Shown in pieces: positions 6,015 to 57,696 of a stretch of 64,000 bases of DNA. A model generated the notes under the pieces. The model was not told the origin of the DNA. It saw nothing but the letters and a program-made list of their open reading frames with translations, and searched no databases. Positions within the stretch are counted from its first letter, which is position 1; the number at the start of each line of letters is the position of its first letter. Origin of the DNA: Polytrichum commune (Eukaryota; Streptophyta; Polytrichopsida; Polytrichales; Polytrichaceae); the NCBI GenBank assembly GCA_950295325.1, contig OX485803.1:27220001-27284000 (forward strand). The letters run 5' to 3'. The position numbers and the translations under genes were made by a program.

Positions 6015-6196
6015 ATTTTTTTTGTTAAATAATCATAACATTTTAAAGACATAACAATGTTTTGTGGGATTGGCGGTATTCCATAGAATATTCTACATAG
6101 ATGAGTGTGGGAAATATTCTGTGGAATACCCTCAGTCCCACATAGCATTGTTATGAATTTGAATAATGTTATGATAATTGTTTGTCAAAAAAATTA
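6015..6196. repeat. Near-palindromic foldback, arms about 75-80 bases
   Basis: The left arm (about 6,015-6,096) and right arm (about 6,110-6,196) are complementary through CATAACAATG, TGTGGGA, GGTATTCCA and GAATATT, with a spacer of about 15 bases. It has the size and form of a MITE or a long RNA hairpin. It is preceded by a TTC repeat at about 5,989-6,009. No matching copy was noticed elsewhere in the window. Confidence 0.65.
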
Positions 6197-17130: not shown

Positions 17131-17610
17131 ATATCTACCCAACCCGAGTATTCTTACCATGCATGATCCAGACATTTGAAACAGGAATGAACTTCTTGAG
17201 TGAATTAAACTCACTCTTGCCTATGCATTCTTGTGACAGCCTCGAGGAGGAAGGTCGGAATGATTTGTATGATTTTGTCTTCTATTGCTATTGGATTGCC
17301 GCCCAATCATCACAATAAAGAGTCCCATTTCTGCATAGCGCGATTCTACCAAGTGTTTTGCAAATATTACACAGGTCCAAATGCAAACCTTGGACAGAAA
17401 TGGATGAAAACTGTCATATCACAGATGATTTCAGCAGAAACATCACCCAACAAGCAGTTGTGAAGTACCTTGATGATTACATGCGAAATTGTGAAATGCA
17501 TCTTCCTCCATCGAATAAACTCCCATGTGCCGTTGCATGCGATTATGCGGCAAGGGTCTAAAATACTGAATTTCTTAGGCATCACATACGGTGGATGAGA
17601 GTAAATAGAC

Positions 17611-17706
17611 TAGAGGCACAACAGAGATGCATGACTCTACAGCATCGAGATGAAGCATCGTGGCTTCAAACTGCGCTGTAGGGCCGTGCATCTCTGCTGA
17701 ACCTCC
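17611..17706 (-). ncRNA. MicroRNA-like hairpin 1
   Basis: The arms are 17,611-17,643 and 17,675-17,706. Over about 33 aligned positions they are complementary except for seven sites. Read on the minus strand these are about four G-U pairs and three mismatches; on the plus strand they are about two and five. The loop carries its own six-pair stem (TGAAGC with GCTTCA). The core arm, 17,623-17,643, differs by a few bases from the matching arm of the other three hairpins. Length, limited mismatches and the small loop fit a plant miRNA precursor. No known miRNA family was recognised. Confidence 0.55.
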
Positions 17707-17746
17707 AGCCTCAACAGTAGTATCTGATGAGCACCTGGACGGAAGA

Positions 17747-17834
17747 CCAATAGAGGTGTATGACTCTACAACCATGTGTGAATGATCTCCTCCGCTATAG
17801 CACACAAGGGTGTAGAGTCACACACCCTTACAGG
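17747..17834 (-). ncRNA. MicroRNA-like hairpin 2
   Basis: The arms pair for about 36 positions, including a proximal TGTGTG/CACACA clamp, around a loop of roughly 20 nt. The arm at 17,752-17,773 is identical over 22 bases to the arm at 18,318-18,339 in hairpin 3, although loops and flanks are unrelated. That pattern is expected if this arm encodes the mature small RNA. On the minus strand this would be the 3' arm, and a 21-mer beginning TTGTAGAGTCATACACCTCT would start with U, the usual first base of plant miRNAs. Confidence 0.55.
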
Positions 17835-18165
17835 GCATCCAGCCATATTATTTCGAGACATATTGACGTGGTTCTTGTTGCAATATGAGCCAGGGTTTCC
17901 AGTTCCCTCGCAATATTTATGCTCAAGACATAAGGTGCCCCTGTCCGTAAGCTTCTTTGCCATGAAGACCTTCATACAATTTTGAAACTTTTCAATCAGT
18001 TCTGTAATCATGATGACTTTAAAGTATAGACAAAGCAATAGCATACATACTGTACATAACGTGCAAGTTTCTACCAATTTTGGATGTTAATGCACCACAC
18101 TCTGTTTAGAACAGTAAAGTTTTTGAAGCTTTTTGACTACTAGCAATCACATGCTTCTTCAGAAC

Positions 18166-18174
18166 TATAAATAG
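18166..18174 (+). promoter_or_regulatory. TATA-box-like element upstream of hairpins 3 and 4 (plus-strand alternative)
   Basis: TATAAATAG matches the plant TATA-box consensus and lies about 140 bases before hairpin 3. Start sites in plants usually fall about 30 bases downstream, here near 18,200. If used, hairpins 3 and 4 would form a separate plus-strand precursor. Confidence 0.3.
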
Positions 18175-18307
18175 AATGACAGCAGGTTCGACACTATCAG
18201 AAAATCTGAAACAGGGAAGATTGAACTCACCAGCATCCGTTGTCTAGTTGTTAAAAGACGAGGGCCAGAACAGGAGGTGCCGCCGCGCTAACATCAGTCG
18301 ACAAAAC

Positions 18308-18387
18308 GAGGCACAACAGAGGTGTATGACTCTACAACCACGTGCGCAGATGACGGGTTGTAGAGCCATGCACCCTTGCTGGAATTC
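18308..18387 (-). ncRNA. MicroRNA-like hairpin 3
   Basis: The arms at 18,308-18,339 and about 18,356-18,387 pair over 32 positions. The last ten next to the loop are perfect (CTCTACAACC with GGTTGTAGAG), and the loop is about 16 nt. The inner 23 bases have only five differences from perfect complementarity, all transitions. It shares a 22-base identical arm with hairpin 2 and differs from hairpin 4 by one base across that arm. It lies about 140 bases downstream of a plus-strand TATAAATAG at 18,166, which would favour the opposite strand. Confidence 0.55.
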
Positions 18388-18527
18388 GTTTTCAAGGTAA
18401 TTAGGATGCCTGAAGCAATTTCAAACCGGGTGCTTCTGATCCTTGTAAATTATGCACGCAATAACGCTTCGATCTCTTTCCATCCACATTTGATGAGGCA
18501 TAAAATGTATTCTGTCAGCTCCACTGA

Positions 18528-18616
18528 AGCAGGAGGCACAGCAGAGGTGCATGACTCTACAACCGCGTCTCTACGATGGGTTGTAGGGCCATGTACCCTT
18601 GCCGAAGCTCCATGCT
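18528..18616 (-). ncRNA. MicroRNA-like hairpin 4
   Basis: The arms pair over about 40 positions. An outer clamp (AGCA and GGAG with CTCC and TGCT, one A bulged) is followed by a central mismatch patch and then a well-paired inner stem ending ACTCTACAACC. The conserved arm is 18,543-18,564. Six core differences divide evenly into mismatches and G-U pairs on either strand, so this copy does not help decide direction. The outer clamp is not present in the other copies, so the precursors have diverged outside the conserved duplex. Confidence 0.55.
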
Positions 18617-20217
18617 GAAGATTGCTTACTTCTGCAATCTGACACAAACGTTGTTAACTATCAAATTTCGGAATACAGGGATTCAGGTGAGAGGGGGGTG
18701 AGAGTCTTAGTCAGTTTGAATAGACACTGATTGATGAATAAACGAGACAGGCCAATGCGTATTTCAACGCAGCAACAAACACGCAGCGGACAGGATGTAC
18801 CCTGTAGATCCGTTCTAGTCATTTCTGAAATATTTGAAGTACCCCGTCAGAGATGAAACACATGGTTAGTCCACATTGATGAGACCGCCAGATGTGCCAG
18901 ACCCCCAATTTCACAAATCTCGAGGGCTAAAATACAAGCTAACAATCTTAACCCGGTATAGTAAACCATCGGGCTACTCACTCCATCTTTTCCTCTTCCT
19001 ATTAAATTTCCTGGCAAATCTTTGCAGCTTCGTTAGGGTCAATATTCTGTTCCACAACATCAGTAACAGAAAACCTGAGTTGCAATAGGTTGCCAATCTG
19101 ACTAGGCACTTGGCTTACGACTATTGATAGTAGACGTATCCAGAAACAATACAAATCTGTTGCGTACAGATTTGCCTACAAGGTCAGGTAGTCAGTACAA
19201 TCGGTGGAGACAAGGTTCTCACAAACATCAGCGCGCAGTAGTTGCATTAGTTTCCATGTAGCAATACTTCCCTGCGCCAGGAGGCGTGCTACAAGAGCAG
19301 AAGATGGACTCGAGAACGGCTTGTGGCACTTCTCGTGCATTAACTTGACACGGTCCTTGCGAAATCAATTAGCGAGGTATATGCCGGTGCATATTGGATT
19401 TGCATTGTGTAAATACTGCTGCACCAACACCTAAACTAGTTGAGCAACGTACTGTAGCGATTGATCTCCGGAGGTCTGCCGTTCCTCATATCATCTCCGG
19501 AGGATGATTGCACAAATGGCTTCGAAGTCTCTACTGTAGTAATGGATCGTGTCTCGAGGCCGATGGTGCAGCTCCCGTCCTAAAAGGTCGCAAACGTGGT
19601 AATTCACCAGCTGAATAGTAACAGAGATTCTTTCAGATATTTTCTTACCAAGAATCGGAAACTATGAGCAGCAGTCGCGGTAGCCTGGTGGGTTTAATTG
19701 CTGCCAAAGAAACTCTTTGCGAGTAGAAGGATGGCCCTATTTGCAAGTCCTACTTCAGCCTCCACCCCTAACGTCCACATATTCGCAGCCAGAATCTCAT
19801 GTCGGTTGATCGTGAGACATTCGACCTAAATATCGGAAGTGATTAAGACACATTACTAAAGGAAGTCAATAATCAACTGCCGTGCACCTATCTCAAAACG
19901 ACTATAATTCCCTCCTCCAACTCCACAGCAAGAACAGACCAATCCATCCAGTAAGTGCAGGATCGGCTGTCTCCATCCTTTGAGACACACAGAATTCCAC
20001 CTACTTACAACCACGACTTCAAAAACAAAAACAGAACTGCTTACACGTCCACTTCCAGTGCCAGCTACAAGCCACAACGTGGTCACATTCGCATGAGACG
20101 CGATTGGGAAAGATCGATACACAGCTCAAACGTAGGCACCCAACGCTGGTCATGGAACGTTATAAAATTGCCCAACACAATTCTACAAGCAGTAAACACT
20201 AAACCGGATTGAAAGTT

Positions 20218-21540
20218 ACAAGCATCGCGTTTTATACGACAGGATCATCAGCAGAGTGTGCGCAATACTCCTTGAAGTGCGCATTGTAGAGAAGAAATTA
20301 AAATAAAATTTGATTGTTGCTATACAATAATGTGAGCAGTGCATCATTGTGTTTATAAGAAAGGAAAAAACGTCACACAAGCGAGGAAGGATCGTGAGCT
20401 ATTGAAATGGAGCTTAACACTGGTCGTTGTCACGACGTGTGGCACAATTTCCTACAAGCATCGCGTCGTCTCATTATGACAAAATCGGTAGATTGCCAGC
20501 AATGATTGCGAGCCGCTTCGAGGAAGGATCATTAAATGGAGCTCGAACAGCGAGGCCGAAGAAACGGACTCGATAACACCACTCACTGGTCAAGGGATTC
20601 TACAAGACTCCTATAAATGCGCAGAGCACAGGAAAAACTCTGAATGCGCAATACTACAATAATAATAATAATGTGAGCAGTGCACATCATTGTCAGAATA
20701 AGGAAAATCTGCAGAAAGGGAGGAAGGATGATCGTGAGCAGTTATGAGTGAACGGAGTGGGCGTGCACCACGAAATGAGAGTGGACTCTTAACACAGCAA
20801 AATTCTACTAGTCGTTATCAAGCTACAAGCATCGCGTCGACTCATATGACAGAATCGACGGAGTGCGAGCAATAATTTCGAGCCGCTAGGCTGAGGAAGG
20901 GATCACTAAATGGAGCTCGAACAGCTAGGTCGAAGAAACGGACTGGACAACAACACCACTGGTCAAGGAGTGCTACAATACTCTCCTATAAGTGCGCACA
21001 GTACAGGAAAAAATCTGAATGCTCAATACTACAATAATAAATAATGTGAGCAGTGCACATCATTGTCACAATAAGTAAACCACGGCAGAGAGTGAGGGAG
21101 GATCCATCGTGAGCAGGTTATAAGTGAATGGAGCGGGCGTGCACCACGGAATGTGAATGGACTGATTCTTATCACAGCGGAATTCAACAAGCCATTATCA
21201 AGCTCATAAGAAACAATCCACAGCGTGTTGCGAGCTGCTTAGGCTGAGGGAGGGATCACTAAGTGGAGCTCGAACAGCTAGGTCGAAGAAACGGACTTGA
21301 CAACAACACCAGTGGTCAAGTAAATGCCACAAGACTCTCCTATAAGTGCGCGGAGTACAGGGAAGAGAAGAAAACAAAAATGAAAACAAAAAAATCTGAA
21401 TGCGCAATACTACTACCACTACAACAATAGTAATAATAATTGGCTGACCAGTACATAACACTGTGTGAATGAGGAAACTCGGCAGAAAGTGAGGGAGGAT
21501 CCATCGTAAACAGTTATAAGTGAATGCAGGGAGGGAGTGT
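20218..21540. repeat. Four diverged tandem units of 340-375 bp
   Basis: Landmarks recur in order: AAGCATCGCG, GAGCTCGAACAGC, ACTGGTCAAG, TCCTATAA, then a run of AAT triplets, then GAGCAGTGCACATCATTG. The TCCT(ATAA) landmark falls at 20,269, 20,609, 20,984 and 21,338, giving spacings of 340, 375 and 354. The first unit lacks the middle part. The units differ by many substitutions and small indels, so the array is old. It lies just downstream of the minus-strand TATA box and would be in the 5' part of that transcript. Confidence 0.75.
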
Positions 21541-21930: not shown

Positions 21931-23913
21931 ATGGAATTCCGCTGGCGGGCACGGGGGTTTCCGTGCGGCCATGCACAGAGGAGACGGTCAAGGCGTCTGC
22001 TGTCTTCACCTCCACAGTGTAGTAAAAACACAAGCACGAGAGGGGGATCATCGTTGCATACGAGAGTGTACGCTAACCACACTCCGGTCTCTCTAATACC
22101 ATGCCCGTGCCATCCAAAGTGCACGTGATATTAAGGAGGTCTGTAGTGTTAACACAAAAGTAGTGTAACATGTGGCATCATGGAATACCACATGCGTTTC
22201 CGTGCAGTCATGCACAAAGGAGATGGTCAAGACATTTGTTGTCGTTCACCTCCACAGTGTAGTAAAAACACAAGCGCGAGAGGGACGAGAGGGGGGTCAT
22301 CGTTGCATACGAGAGTGTACGCTAAACACACTCCAGTCTTTCTAAAACCATGCCCGTGCCACCCAAAGTGCACATGATATTAAGGAGGTTTGTAGTGTTA
22401 ACACAAAAGTAGTGTAACATGTGGCATCATGGAATACCACATGCGTTTCCGTGCAATCATGCACAAAGGAGATGGTCAAGACATCTGTTGTTGTTCACCT
22501 CCACAGTGTAGTAAAAACACAAGCACGAGAGGGACGAGAGGGGGGTCATCGTTGCATATGAGAGTGTACGCTAAACACACTCCAGTCTTTCTAAAACCAT
22601 GCCCGTGCCACCCAAAGTGCACGTGATATTAAGGAGGTCTGTAGTGTTAACACAAAAGTAGTGTAACATGTGGCATCATGGAATACCACATGCGTTTCCG
22701 TGCAGTCATGCACAAAGGAGATGGTCAAGACATCTGTTGTTGTTCACCTCCACAGTGTAGTAAAAACACAAGCACGAGAGGGACGAGAGGGGGGTCATCG
22801 TTGCGTATGAGAGTGTACGCTAAACACACTCCAGTCTTTCTAAAACCATGCCCGTGCCACCCAAAGTGCACGTGATATTAAGGAGGTCTGTAGTGTTAAC
22901 ACAAAAGTAGTGTAACATGTGGCATCATGGAATACCACATGCGTTTCCGTGCGATCATGCACAGAGGAGATGGTCAAGACATTTGTTGTCGTTCACCTCC
23001 ACAGTGTAGTAAAAACACAAGCGCGAGAGGGATGAGAGGGGGGTCATTGTTGCATACGAGAGTGTACGCTAAACACACTCCAGTCTTTCTAAAACCATGC
23101 CCGTGCCACCCAAAGTGCACATGATATTAAGGAGGTCTGTAGTGTTAACACAAAAGTAGTGTAACATGTGGCATCATGGAATACCACATGCGTTTCCGTG
23201 CGATCATGCACAGAGGAGATGGTCAAGACATTTGTTGCCGTTCACCTCCACAGTGTAGTAAAAACACAAGCGCGAGAGGGACGAGAGGGGGGTCATCGTT
23301 GCATACGAGAGTGTACGCTAAACACACTCCGGTCTTTCTAAAACCATGCCCGTGCCACCCAAAGTGCAAGTGATATTAAGGAGGTTTGTAGTGTTAACAC
23401 AAAAGTAGTGTAACATGTGGCATCATGGAATACCACATGCGTTTCCGTGCGGCCATGCACAGAGGAGATGGTCAAGGCATCTGCTGTGTTCACCTCCACA
23501 GTGTAGTAAAAACACAAGCGCAAGAGGGGGATCATCGTTGCAGATGAGAGTGTGCACTAAACACACTCCGGTCTCTCTAATACCATGCTTGTGGCAACTA
23601 AAGTGCAAGTGATATTAAGGAGGTTTGTAGTGTTACCAGAGAATTGGTGTAACATGTGGCATCATGGAATACCACATGCGTTTCCGTGCGGCCATGCACA
23701 GAGGAGATGGTCAAAACATTTGTTGTTGTTCACCTCCACAATGTAGTAAAAATACAAGCGCGAGAGGGGGATCGTTGCATACGAGAGTGTACACTTAACA
23801 CACTCCAGTCTTTCTAATACCATGCCTGTGGCAACCAAAGTGCATGTGATATTAAGGAGGTTTGTAGTATTAACAGAGAATTTGTGTAACATGTGGCATC
23901 ATGGAATACCACA
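21931..23913. repeat. Tandem array of 249-bp units (eight full, one partial)
   Basis: Units begin with ATGGAATACCACATGCG (ATGGAATTCCGC in the first) at 21,931, 22,180, 22,429, 22,678, 22,927, 23,176 and 23,425, a spacing of exactly 249. Shorter 238-base units start at 23,425 and 23,663, and a partial unit starts at 23,901. The central units are about 97% identical. The first and the last two are more diverged, as is usual at array edges. Differences are almost all transitions, many at CpG. A G-box CACGTG is present in three units (22,122, 22,620, 22,869) and decayed in the others. Each unit carries a 65-codon open frame that shifts many amino acids between copies, so it is not treated as coding. 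Confidence 0.9.
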
Positions 23914-46330: not shown

Positions 46331-46454
46331 TACACTTAATGTTACTTACTTTCATAGGGTTAGTGATATTTACGTATATGCGTTCGTATTTAGTGTATCA
46401 AACACTAAATATCATATTTAGTGTACCTTCACTTCTTATTGTATTGGCATTCAT

Positions 46455-46520
46455 TGGCTTGGCTTGGCTTTTGGTTCCGTAGCCTATATAGGCTACGAAC
46501 CAGCCAGCCAGCCAGCCAGG
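46455..46520. repeat. Palindrome inside a longer imperfect hairpin
   Basis: GTAGCCTATATAGGCTAC (46,479-46,496) is a perfect 18-base palindrome enclosed by GGTTC and GAACC. Outside it, TTGGCTTGGCTTGGC faces AGCCAGCCAGCCAGCC. The right side is also an AGCC microsatellite. Confidence 0.6.
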
Positions 46521-46687
46521 CCCTTTTTAAGCAATACGGTTTGGGATCCCCCTGCCCCACAAGCCAACTAACTTAAACAACCGTTCCTAAGCGGCAAAGC
46601 CACCAGCCTCGGGTTGCACATCTGACACTTCAAGCTTGCCGCTCAGTTCACTGGGAGAACTATACACCGCTTTTAGGGCATTTAGTA

Positions 46688-50429: not shown

Positions 50430-51642
50430 GGGGCGGTTTACACTATGGACTATGACGTTGGACCAGGGCTCTGCAAGGCAGCTGATTGGCTCTTGAAGTT
50501 GTCCCGGGACAACTTCGGTTTACACTAAGGAAAAAATGGCAGAGGGACCATGGAGGTTGAGGTCCCCAAAATATTATTTTTAAGGCCTAATAAATGCACT
50601 GACATGGTCCAACGGGTTTTGCAGTGAGAGAGACAAGAGAGGTGGTATGGTAGGAAAAGGCAAGGGCCCATGTCAAAGAAATGCCATTTCAAGAATGTTT
50701 TAATGAATCTACCTTTTATGTACCTTAATCATATTATAGCCCATGAGACATACCAACACTACCTTGCCCTACCCCTTAAACCGGCTTACATGTGTTTCAT
50801 CAAACAACGCGGGACATCTAGACCTCAAGAATTCAAGTGCAGATTTGTTTTTTTGGTCTACCAGCTGCAATGTTTGGAACTTGGGGGCGTATAATATACC
50901 GTTGGAAAGGTCTTGAAAATACCTTTCCAACGGTATATTACACGCCCCAAAATGTTTTTAAAATACAGTTGCAAAAGAAAAAACAAACATTTGTAGTGGT
51001 TTAGTGACTGTAGATCAGGGTGGTCAAAAGAAGCGCAATGGGAAATCTTCTAACATTAATTATCAAAGAATTGAAATTTAGTGTTGAGCAAGGTTGGGTG
51101 GTAACAACATTAGATATAATCAAACACTAAATATCCTAGATAGTGTAGTGATAACACAAGGTACATGTCACATGTAAATTACATTGAACATGTACAAATT
51201 GAATCGCTCATTTTTTTTGTAAAAATTGTTGTGAGAAGATTTGCAAGCCACATCTTCGACACATTTAACAAGAAGTGAAGACAGTTGAAGCCCAAGAGAT
51301 GACAAGAGAATGATCAAACTAAAAGAAGAAAAAACTAAGTGACAAGATAAGTGAAGGCATGTGTAGGCAAGTGAAGGCAAATTGAAGTCAACAAAATGGT
51401 CAAACTTCATTTTTTCCCAATATGCCCTTTTTGGGCTTATATTAAAAAAATCAGCACATCCACTTCTTGCCGCATGGTCATTCCTCTTGGTCCACATTCG
51501 GTTTACACCTAGTTAGGGGCCCAACGGCTTTGTAAATCAAATTTTTAAGAACTTGGACCATGAAATGTAGACCATGAACTCGTACCGCGGAATAAGGCAT
51601 CTTCCGTGGGACGAGTTCATGGTCTATGGTGTAAACCGCCCC
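50430..51642. mobile_element. Composite MITE of the GGACCATGAAGT subfamily, 1,213 bp, TCA duplication
   Basis: The ends GGGGCGGTTTACACTATGGA and, reversed, GGGGCGGTTTACACCATAGA are near-perfect inverted repeats, flanked by TCA at 50,427-50,429 and 51,643-51,645. The left 150 bases match the element at 63,832. The middle holds inserted material: a copy related to the foldback at 328-554 (about 50,810-51,035) and a piece with ACACTAAATAT motifs. No transposase. Confidence 0.8.
50881..50950. repeat. Near-perfect 31-base inverted repeat, 9-base loop
   Basis: The arms 50,881-50,911 and 50,921-50,950 pair with one G bulge and one transition. Core words are CCGTTGGAAAGGT and ACCTTTCCAACGG. It sits at the centre of the nested foldback within the composite MITE. 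One arm recurs at about 428-457. Confidence 0.8.
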
Positions 51643-54845: not shown

Positions 54846-54993
54846 TGTCCACAGTATCAATCTGGTTATACGTGTTGAAGCAGAGACCCAAGGTCAGGCA
54901 GATGTGTGTATTATTATTATTATTATTATTATTTCTTCTTTCTATCTTATTGCGCTTCTGAACACAGTGACCTAGAATCCAATACCACAGCAC

Positions 54994-55960
54994 AAGTCAG
55001 AGTGTTGCCTCGTGCAGTATGTATGGGGAAGGATTTGGATCCGGAGAGATCTTTGTAGCAGGCTGTGAAATGTTTGTTGGAAGTAGATGGTGCTAATAAC
55101 CCTCACTTTAAGTGCTGAGCATAGATACTACTATTGATTTACATATTTGTCAGGTGATTCTCATTAACATTTCATAAAGAATCCCAACACATCAAAATAT
55201 GTCTTGTTTTGTATGTCCAACTTCAAAGGGTTTAAAATTTTACTGATAGATGACTCAAATCCAATATCAAAGTATGGTGTTAAGGTGGTGGACATTCTCA
55301 TAATCAAGTCAGAATGTTGCCTCGTATGGTATGTATGGGGAAGGATTTGGATCTGGAGAGATCTTTTGTAGCATGTTGTGAAATGTTTGTTGGAAGTAGA
55401 TGGTGCTAATAACCCTCACTTTAAATGTTGAGCATAGATACTACTATTGATTTACATATTTTTTCAGGTGATTCTCATTAACATTTGATAAATAATCCTA
55501 ACACACCAAAATATGTCTTGTTTTGTATGTCCAACTTCAAAGGGTTTAAAATTTTACTGATAGATGACTCAAATCCAATATCAGAGTATGGTGTTAATTA
55601 AGGCGGTGGACATTCTCATAATCAATATGTGCATTCTCATAATTAGGTCAGGATGTTTGCCTCGTACGGTATTTATCGTGAAGGATTTGGATATGGAGAG
55701 ATCTTTTGTAGCAAGCTGTGAAATGTTTGCTGGAAGTAGATGGTGCTAATTAATAACCCTCACTTTGAGTGTTGAGCATAGATACTACTATTGATTATGT
55801 ATTTCTAAAGTGATTCTCATTAGCACCTGACAAAAGATCCCAACACACCAAAATATGTCTTGTTTTGTATGCACAACTTTTAAGGGTTCAAAATTTTATT
55901 GATAGGTGACTCAACTCCAATATTAGAGTATGATGTTAAGGTGGTGGACATTCTCATAAT
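54994..55960. repeat. Three tandem units of 312-340 bp
   Basis: The landmark TGCCTCG falls at 55,006, 55,318 and 55,658. Each is followed by GGATTTGGAT, GAGAGATCTTT, GTAGATGGTGCTAAT, AAATATGTCTTGTTTTGTAT and GTGGACATTCTCATAATCAA. The units are about 90% identical. A TTA microsatellite precedes the array at 54,909-54,933. No coding sense was found. Confidence 0.85.
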
Positions 55961-57696
55961 CAATTTGTGCAAATTTTGCAAGAATTTAGGGTGTTGATTT
56001 AACATGCTCTATCTACCATTGTAAGTACTTGCATATAAACTACTTGATGACAATTGCACAAACTAGCCCTATGAACGTGGGTGGAAAACTAGCATGGAAA
56101 TAATTAGTGTGGGTCACACTAATTTCAAGTCAAGGTGGGACTACCATGGGTCCAAGACCACATGTCTTCCCCTATGTTTGCATAAAGACTTCCGGTCAAC
56201 ACCTTACATAAAATAAAACAGTCAGTTTACATAAAAATCTCTAGAATAAACCAAATCATGTGGCCCGTGCTAATTTCTACTTAAAACTTAGTGTACATTA
56301 GGTTAAAATTTAGTGTGGCCCATATTAATTCTCATTATGAGAATTAGCGTGAACTCTAAAAACATGTTGTGGCCCACAATATTAGGACTATTTAGTGTAG
56401 TTAAGATCCTAATTCTTCCAAAGCAAACCCCTTTTGTTCTAGTAGTCTAATAACCATGTTTTAAGAAGAAGAAAAAGAACACATAACATTATATTCATGC
56501 TTGAAAATTTGGTCAATTTTTTGGTTGTAGTTTCCAAATTTTGTTGTCAACTCCATTCACATTCAACTTGCTACATAGATGTGAAATTTTGTGAAGGAGG
56601 CATAACACCTTATGTCGCATCATGGTTAACCGTGATCAACATATGGCTAACGGGCTCACATTCATGCCGGTACCTGGTTACGGGCATTATTTTTATTTTA
56701 TTTATTTAAGATCCGCACATTGATAACATAATTTAGCTTCATGCCTAGATTAAATTGAACTCTAACGAATCTAAGCTTCGCGGAATTCGATTTGAGCACA
56801 AGTCCTTTTGATTCCCACACCCCATAGAACATGACATCTTTGGTGAATAAATGTTTGGTGATTAAGTTAGAATGATGTGCTACTCATGTGACCTTGGTTC
56901 CACATTCTTTTTTGCTGCACTAAATATTGTATCAAGTGCTCGGGGGGGGCACTCCCTTGTATATTTTGCATACACCTGCGATAATGAGCTATTAAAATGG
57001 GGGCTATTTACCTATGAGAAAGGATTATAAGGGATGCTAATTTTTGAAATAATGGTAAATTGTTGTGATTATTTGCACCCTATTGGTAATTATAAATTCT
57101 TGGATGGTTGATTTTATGGTACCCTATATTACTTATATGTATTTTTTCCCCCTGATTGCCCCCATTCCTTAAAGTGTATGATACAGTAGAATTCCCGTTA
57201 GAAGCATATGTACAGAGTAAGAGAAACAAACATTTACTAGGGTTTAGGGTTCATGGTCACACTGAAGTCCGGGCAAAGCAAAACACTAAACAATAACAAC
57301 AAAAGATTGCAATTACATGTCATTAAGCAACACGAGCCAACGAATAAAAGTTGTGTTGGATAACACCGTTAGAAACCTTGAGGTCTTAGGGAACAGGCCA
57401 GCCACATGTGTCTCAAAGTCACATTTACAAGGTTTGCAGAATCCCTACAATTGATGCCTTGATCTTCCAATCCTACACATTGGAGGAAAATCCCACGCCA
57501 TGCAAGCAAAATCCACCTAAACTAGCTAGGCTACCATTTACACATGTGGGAGATATGAGGGTACTCGAACTGAAATGACTACTACAAATTTCAAGGTATA
57601 CTAATGATCATTCAGCCTTTTTTCCAAATTATATCTCCACATGTGTGAGATAGTACAAATTTAGCAGGTTTTATTTTTTATTTGAAATGAACTCAC
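55961..57696. other. AT-rich intergenic stretch
   Basis: No recognised gene. The motif GTG.CCCA.ATTAGTGTG recurs loosely between 56,090 and 56,400, resembling 44,880-45,200. This points to another dispersed repeat. Confidence 0.45.

Follow-up and report, generated by a model that had tools for sequence, protein, structure and literature searches.

A tandem cluster of four MIR1223 microRNA genes very probably lies on the minus strand of the chromosome studied here, which is that of a land plant and probably of a moss. It falls within the 64,000-nucleotide stretch of DNA that we analyzed as a whole (hereafter the window), at C1:27220001-27284000 in a genome of 408 Mb in 64 contigs. An earlier reading, made from the letters of the sequence only, had placed the hairpins in no known family and suggested that they may be undescribed; this is contradicted by a full-length match to MIR1223 (RF01941) in all four copies. 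The same reading had proposed a plant microRNA cluster of tandem precursors whose mature arm is conserved, and the sequence comparisons support that proposal through the MIR1223 match and the conservation of the arm. That this is a microRNA cluster is well supported at the level of sequence; as its members belong to the already named moss family miR1223, the find is largely familiar.

Four stem-loops with a common arm

The four stem-loops, h1 to h4, occupy positions 17610-17708, 17739-17842, 18305-18390 and 18530-18613 of the window; one arm is common to all of them while the loops and flanks differ, and the repeat searches and the folds agree on this picture of four stem-loops in about 1 kb, as the sequence-only reading had it. 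In the repeat search of the window the conserved arm was recovered as a four-copy direct repeat with starts at 17612, 17741, 18307 and 18532, the opposite arm as a second four-copy repeat with starts at 17670, 17804, 18352 and 18575, and inverted-repeat pairs linked both arms in copies 1, 2 and 3. The arm sequences given earlier are also correct, namely AGAGGTGTATGACTCTACAA in copies 2 and 3, with one change in copy 4 and three in copy 1. A search of the window with a model built from the four copies returned no fifth copy up to an E-value of 10.

When folded in both directions, all four copies form hairpins on the plus and on the minus strand, with z-scores from -4.39 to -8.87 over the eight folds; in each fold, none of 200 shuffles folded as well as the real hairpin. 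On the minus strand the fold of h1 (positions 17600-17715) reaches -66.8 kcal/mol with a z-score of -8.87, and the z-scores of h2, h3 and h4 are -5.09, -6.86 and -4.98, respectively; h4 folds slightly better on the plus strand (-49.6 kcal/mol) than on the minus strand (-46.3 kcal/mol). A loose hairpin test, applied to 12778 windows of 110 nt and requiring an MFE of -38 or lower and at least 27 pairs, was passed by 18 merged intervals of the window, three of which make up the cluster and 15 of which lie elsewhere. What goes beyond chance at the cluster is thus the shared arm together with the family match, and not folding as such.

Conservation among the copies is graded along the hairpin. Averaged over the six pairwise comparisons, identity is 0.90 for the 21-nt conserved arm, 0.71 for the opposite arm, 0.58 and 0.61 for the lower stem, 0.47 for the loop and 0.53-0.59 for the 30-nt flanks, and shuffled controls give 0.43-0.60 overall and 0.43-0.57 for the loop and flanks. 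Loop and flank identity is therefore near the level of the shuffled controls, and the opposite arm is partly conserved as well, which corrects the picture of a single conserved arm.

Family, mature arm and strand

In a relaxed Rfam scan RF01941, which is built from loci of Physcomitrium patens, matched h1, h2, h3 and h4 on the minus strand over model positions 1-102 of 102, with 60.4 bits (E 6.7e-14), 66.0 bits (E 1.3e-15), 64.3 bits (E 4.3e-15) and 72.8 bits (E 1.1e-17), respectively. The Rfam gathering score for this family is 77 bits, a curator's cut-off and not a biological property, and all four hairpins fall 4.2 to 16.6 bits short of it. A default Rfam scan of the window gave no match because all four scores are under this value, and we therefore call the hairpins homologues that would be left out at the strict cut-off. 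Matches to mir-676, mir-2450, snoR128 and Atu_Ti3 were returned at E-values of 0.008 to 3.1, far below the respective gathering scores, and were taken as chance or generic hairpin similarity.

The likely mature sequence was approached through two forms of ppt-miR1223 from the literature. The first, UUGUAGAGUCAUACACCUCCA, is printed in an excerpt of a paper on onion (PMC7088424), where we assigned the column to ppt-miR1223 because the sequence beside it is part of the onion precursor; the second, UUGUAGAGUCAUGCACCUCUA, is implied by our reading of the primers in an excerpt of a paper on ginger (PMC8323298). On the minus strand the 3' arm of h2, UUGUAGAGUCAUACACCUCUA (17751-17771), agrees with both the printed and the primer-implied form at 20 of 21 positions, and that of h3, UUGUAGAGUCAUACACCUCUG (18317-18337), with both at 19 of 21. 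The arm of h4, UUGUAGAGUCAUGCACCUCUG (18542-18562), agrees at 18 of 21 positions with the printed form and at 20 of 21 with the primer-implied form. The weakest is that of h1, CUGUAGAGUCAUGCAUCUCUG (17622-17642), at 16 and 18 of 21, which also starts with C instead of U. Three of the four 21-nt arms have G as their last base and the fourth has A. These four arms are the putative mature sequences, to judge by their similarity to ppt-miR1223 and their position in the folds.

The minus-strand folds accommodate, in every hairpin, a star strand of 21 nt with 2-nt 3' overhangs, which puts the predicted star arms at 17674-17694 (h1), 17808-17828 (h2), 18356-18376 (h3) and 18579-18599 (h4), and mature positions 1-19 contain 2, 2, 2 and 3 unpaired bases in h1 to h4. 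Plant MIRNA hairpins are expected to be under 300 nt and commonly to have no more than five duplex mismatches; all four hairpins are under 300 nt with few duplex mismatches.

The cluster might alternatively be derived from MIR1223 and decayed, that is, a formerly working locus that is now an unexpressed relic. Scores below the gathering cut-off, the drifted mature arm of h1, the lack of a convincing target site and the presence in the genome of at least one truncated MIR1223 relic would all be in keeping with this, yet three copies retain 18-20 of 21 positions of the printed ppt-miR1223, and an arm held at 0.90 mean identity while the loops are near random is not expected from neutral decay. 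We regard such a decayed cluster as improbable.

A further alternative concerns orientation: the plus strand, or both strands, might be transcribed and yield a functional small RNA, the former being the orientation adopted in the sequence-only reading. The hairpins fold on both strands, and there is no strand signal internal to them: the duplexes hold 7 G-U versus 8 A-C pairs, so that the assignment to the minus strand is drawn from homology only. RF01941 and the printed ppt-miR1223 are, however, oriented, and at the same four places the plus-strand RF01941 scores are 42.0-51.0 bits, so that minus is the better strand by 15.0 to 30.8 bits in all four copies; transcription of the plus strand or of both to functional effect is accordingly, in our judgment, highly improbable. 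Given the RF01941 homology on the minus strand, what reads as a conserved 5' arm on the plus strand is therefore complementary to the mature 3' arm.

The family is thinly represented in the literature we searched. Searches with 16-18-mers of the arms matched no paper, and one of the four arm 19-mers occurs there, in PMC7088424. A text find for "1223" was negative in two moss microRNA papers (PMC1838911 and PMC3565333), and the term "miR1223" retrieved no title about moss and, among the passages retrieved, none on a second moss.

Occurrence in the genome and a partial upstream copy

Searched genome-wide at E<=1, RF01941 gave eight matches among the best 50 of 25115 candidates scored, and these are the places of h1 to h4 on both strands; at this loose threshold the model also matches, below the cut-off, in 3 of 14 control genomes. 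Among the scored candidates, the DNA of h1 and h2 (17600-17850) has itself as its sole genomic match, that of h3 and h4 (18295-18625) has one match besides itself, 36 bases at C1:22585988-22586023 with 95% identity, and pattern and family searches found no further hairpin copy elsewhere in the genome. That the hairpins are inverted repeats of a MITE or other transposon that fold by chance, a reading suggested by the many strong hairpins in the window (18 intervals) and by the high copy number of the two tested outside the cluster, is extremely improbable when, among the scored candidates, the h1-h2 DNA matches itself only and the h3-h4 DNA adds a single 36-base piece, no further hairpin copy is found there, all four hairpins match a microRNA family and it is chiefly one 21-nt arm that is conserved.

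The two other hairpins are of a different kind. That at 6031-6180 is long and near-perfect (-80 kcal/mol, z -15.6) and belongs to a repeat family found at at least 40 places (40 of 1552 candidates scored), the others being at best 78-83% identical. That at 50866-50970 is also near-perfect and is found at at least 40 places (40 of 1281 candidates scored), with other copies 93-95% identical. We call both MITE-like, and the cluster not, because each matches 40 scored places; the repeat at 50866-50970 would be a young family of this type because its other copies are 93-95% identical. The window also holds a strong hairpin (46421-46550, z -5.5) whose stem contains a CCAG-type repeat, a tandem array at 22036-23913 in which a 249-bp unit occurs 7-8 times (with 239 and 237 bp for the final two spacings) and a 148-nt core is 86-99% alike to its reference, and three direct copies of a unit at 54993-55963 with a spacing of 312-344 bp.

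The 36-base match belongs to a partial copy 4.65 Mb away. Its identity to the window is 94.2% at 18589-19105 (517 columns) and 91.4% at 19006-20742 (1763 columns), with weaker pieces to about 22026, and its homology ends inside the 5' arm of h4. The duplicated segment, 18589-20742 of the window and C1:22585988 onward in the copy, is the upstream flank of the cluster on the minus strand and may contain a promoter and 5' leader. This flank thus exists a second time in the genome, there without the hairpins, and the duplicate would include the promoter if our reading of the transcript is right. We take the copy at C1:22.586 Mb to be the derived one because the hairpin is complete in the window copy. 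Over 1001 bases at the copy Rfam returned nothing at E<=1, and the four-copy model, run with filters off, gave the broken hairpin 6.9 bits (E 0.23); with filters on, four loci totalling 27,001 bases yielded no match. The break in the copy is followed by GGTAAGT, which resembles a splice donor.

With regard to protein-coding sequence around the cluster, 11 frames of 80 aa or more overlap 16.7-20.1 kb, a Pfam scan of 10 of them gave one sub-threshold match (14.6 bits, cut-off 28.7), and inspection by eye of the minus-strand frames of 18.6-22.3 kb revealed no clear gene.

Elsewhere in the genome MIR156 matches at two places with 61.2 and 58.5 bits, below its cut-off of 62; one of these MIR156-like hairpins was inspected and carries what we take to be the usual MIR156 mature sequence. 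The best single-domain PDB chains for the PsaD of this genome are 8htu_D, 7ksq_D and 6l35_D, which we take to be from P. patens photosystem I, and the fused three-domain chain 9vfj_D had a higher summed score. Contig C1 is 77.9 Mb long and C3 to C5 measure 53-59 Mb, whereas P. patens has about 27 smaller chromosomes, and we take the plant to be probably a moss other than P. patens.

Proposed expression, candidate targets and implications

Plant microRNAs are diced to 21 nt, one arm is loaded and complementary mRNAs are cleaved. At this locus one or more polymerase II transcripts would start beyond 18613 and run on the minus strand to below 17610, with h4 first and h1 last. Such a transcript would fold into the four hairpins, from which a Dicer-like enzyme would cut 21-nt duplexes; the 3' arm, with a sequence of the type UUGUAGAGUCAURCACCUCUR, would be loaded into an Argonaute protein and would direct the cleavage of complementary mRNAs. 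One putative transcript for all four hairpins, that is, a polycistron, is plausible and would fit their common orientation and 1-kb span. The arrangement is similar to that of rice miR166k-166h, described in an excerpt of PMC5869255, in that several precursors of one family lie in the same orientation in a short stretch; a single transcript is only putative here.

Compared with MIR1223 of P. patens, the cluster is alike in its full-length precursor match, in a probable mature sequence on the 3' arm that agrees at up to 20 of 21 positions and in its stem geometry, but the loops of h3 and h4 are shorter than those of RF01941. The name miR1223 is also in use for other plants. The onion "miR1223", UUGAAGAAUGAUACACCUCUA (excerpt of PMC7088424), and the mulberry "miR1223", UUGAGAUGUCAUGCACCACUCUG (excerpt of PMC5770470), are by eye both farther from the printed ppt-miR1223 than are the arms of h2 to h4, and the ginger paper, in the excerpt of PMC8323298, uses ppt-miR1223 primers and shares the name.

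In pattern searches of the genome for target sites, the strict target pattern with up to 2 mismatches had 5 matches, 4 of them in the cluster (control 2), and with up to 3 mismatches the target pattern had 7, of which the cluster again accounts for 4 (16 for the reversed control). When G-U pairs were tolerated and one mismatch was allowed there were 25 matches, including 5 in the cluster (control 14), and a search with the opposite arm's complement, allowing 3 mismatches, had 12, including 3 in the cluster (control 4). All 23 non-cluster sites from the 3-mismatch and the G-U-tolerant searches were scored. The best non-cluster site, C1:57198682-57198702, is two changes from the strict pattern and, with one end position omitted, scores between 2.0 and 3.5 against the different copies; the second-best of the 23 scores 3.5. 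Over all 21 positions it scores 2.5 against h3, for which 0.55 such sites are expected by chance, and 3.5 against h4, for which 4.26 are expected. We consider it a weak candidate target site and a lead only. A 322-aa reading frame lies 1.2 kb downstream of the site; it had no Pfam match in a scan of 6 of the 21 frames listed, no PDB match at E<=1, and no second genomic copy was found.

In combination, these observations lead us to speculate that an old moss MIR1223 array was kept well outside the Physcomitrium lineage, that its upstream region, copied 4.65 Mb away and cut within a hairpin, could drive another transcript, and that the array may regulate an as yet unnamed gene, for instance by way of the site at C1:57198682-57198702, although we hold this joint scenario to be unlikely.

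The family appears as a tandem cluster in a probable moss other than Physcomitrium, at a locus missed by a default Rfam scan, and the case also cautions that an arm conserved on one strand need not be the mature sequence. For a family little covered in the literature searched, a second genome with MIR1223 would make its targets testable by comparison.
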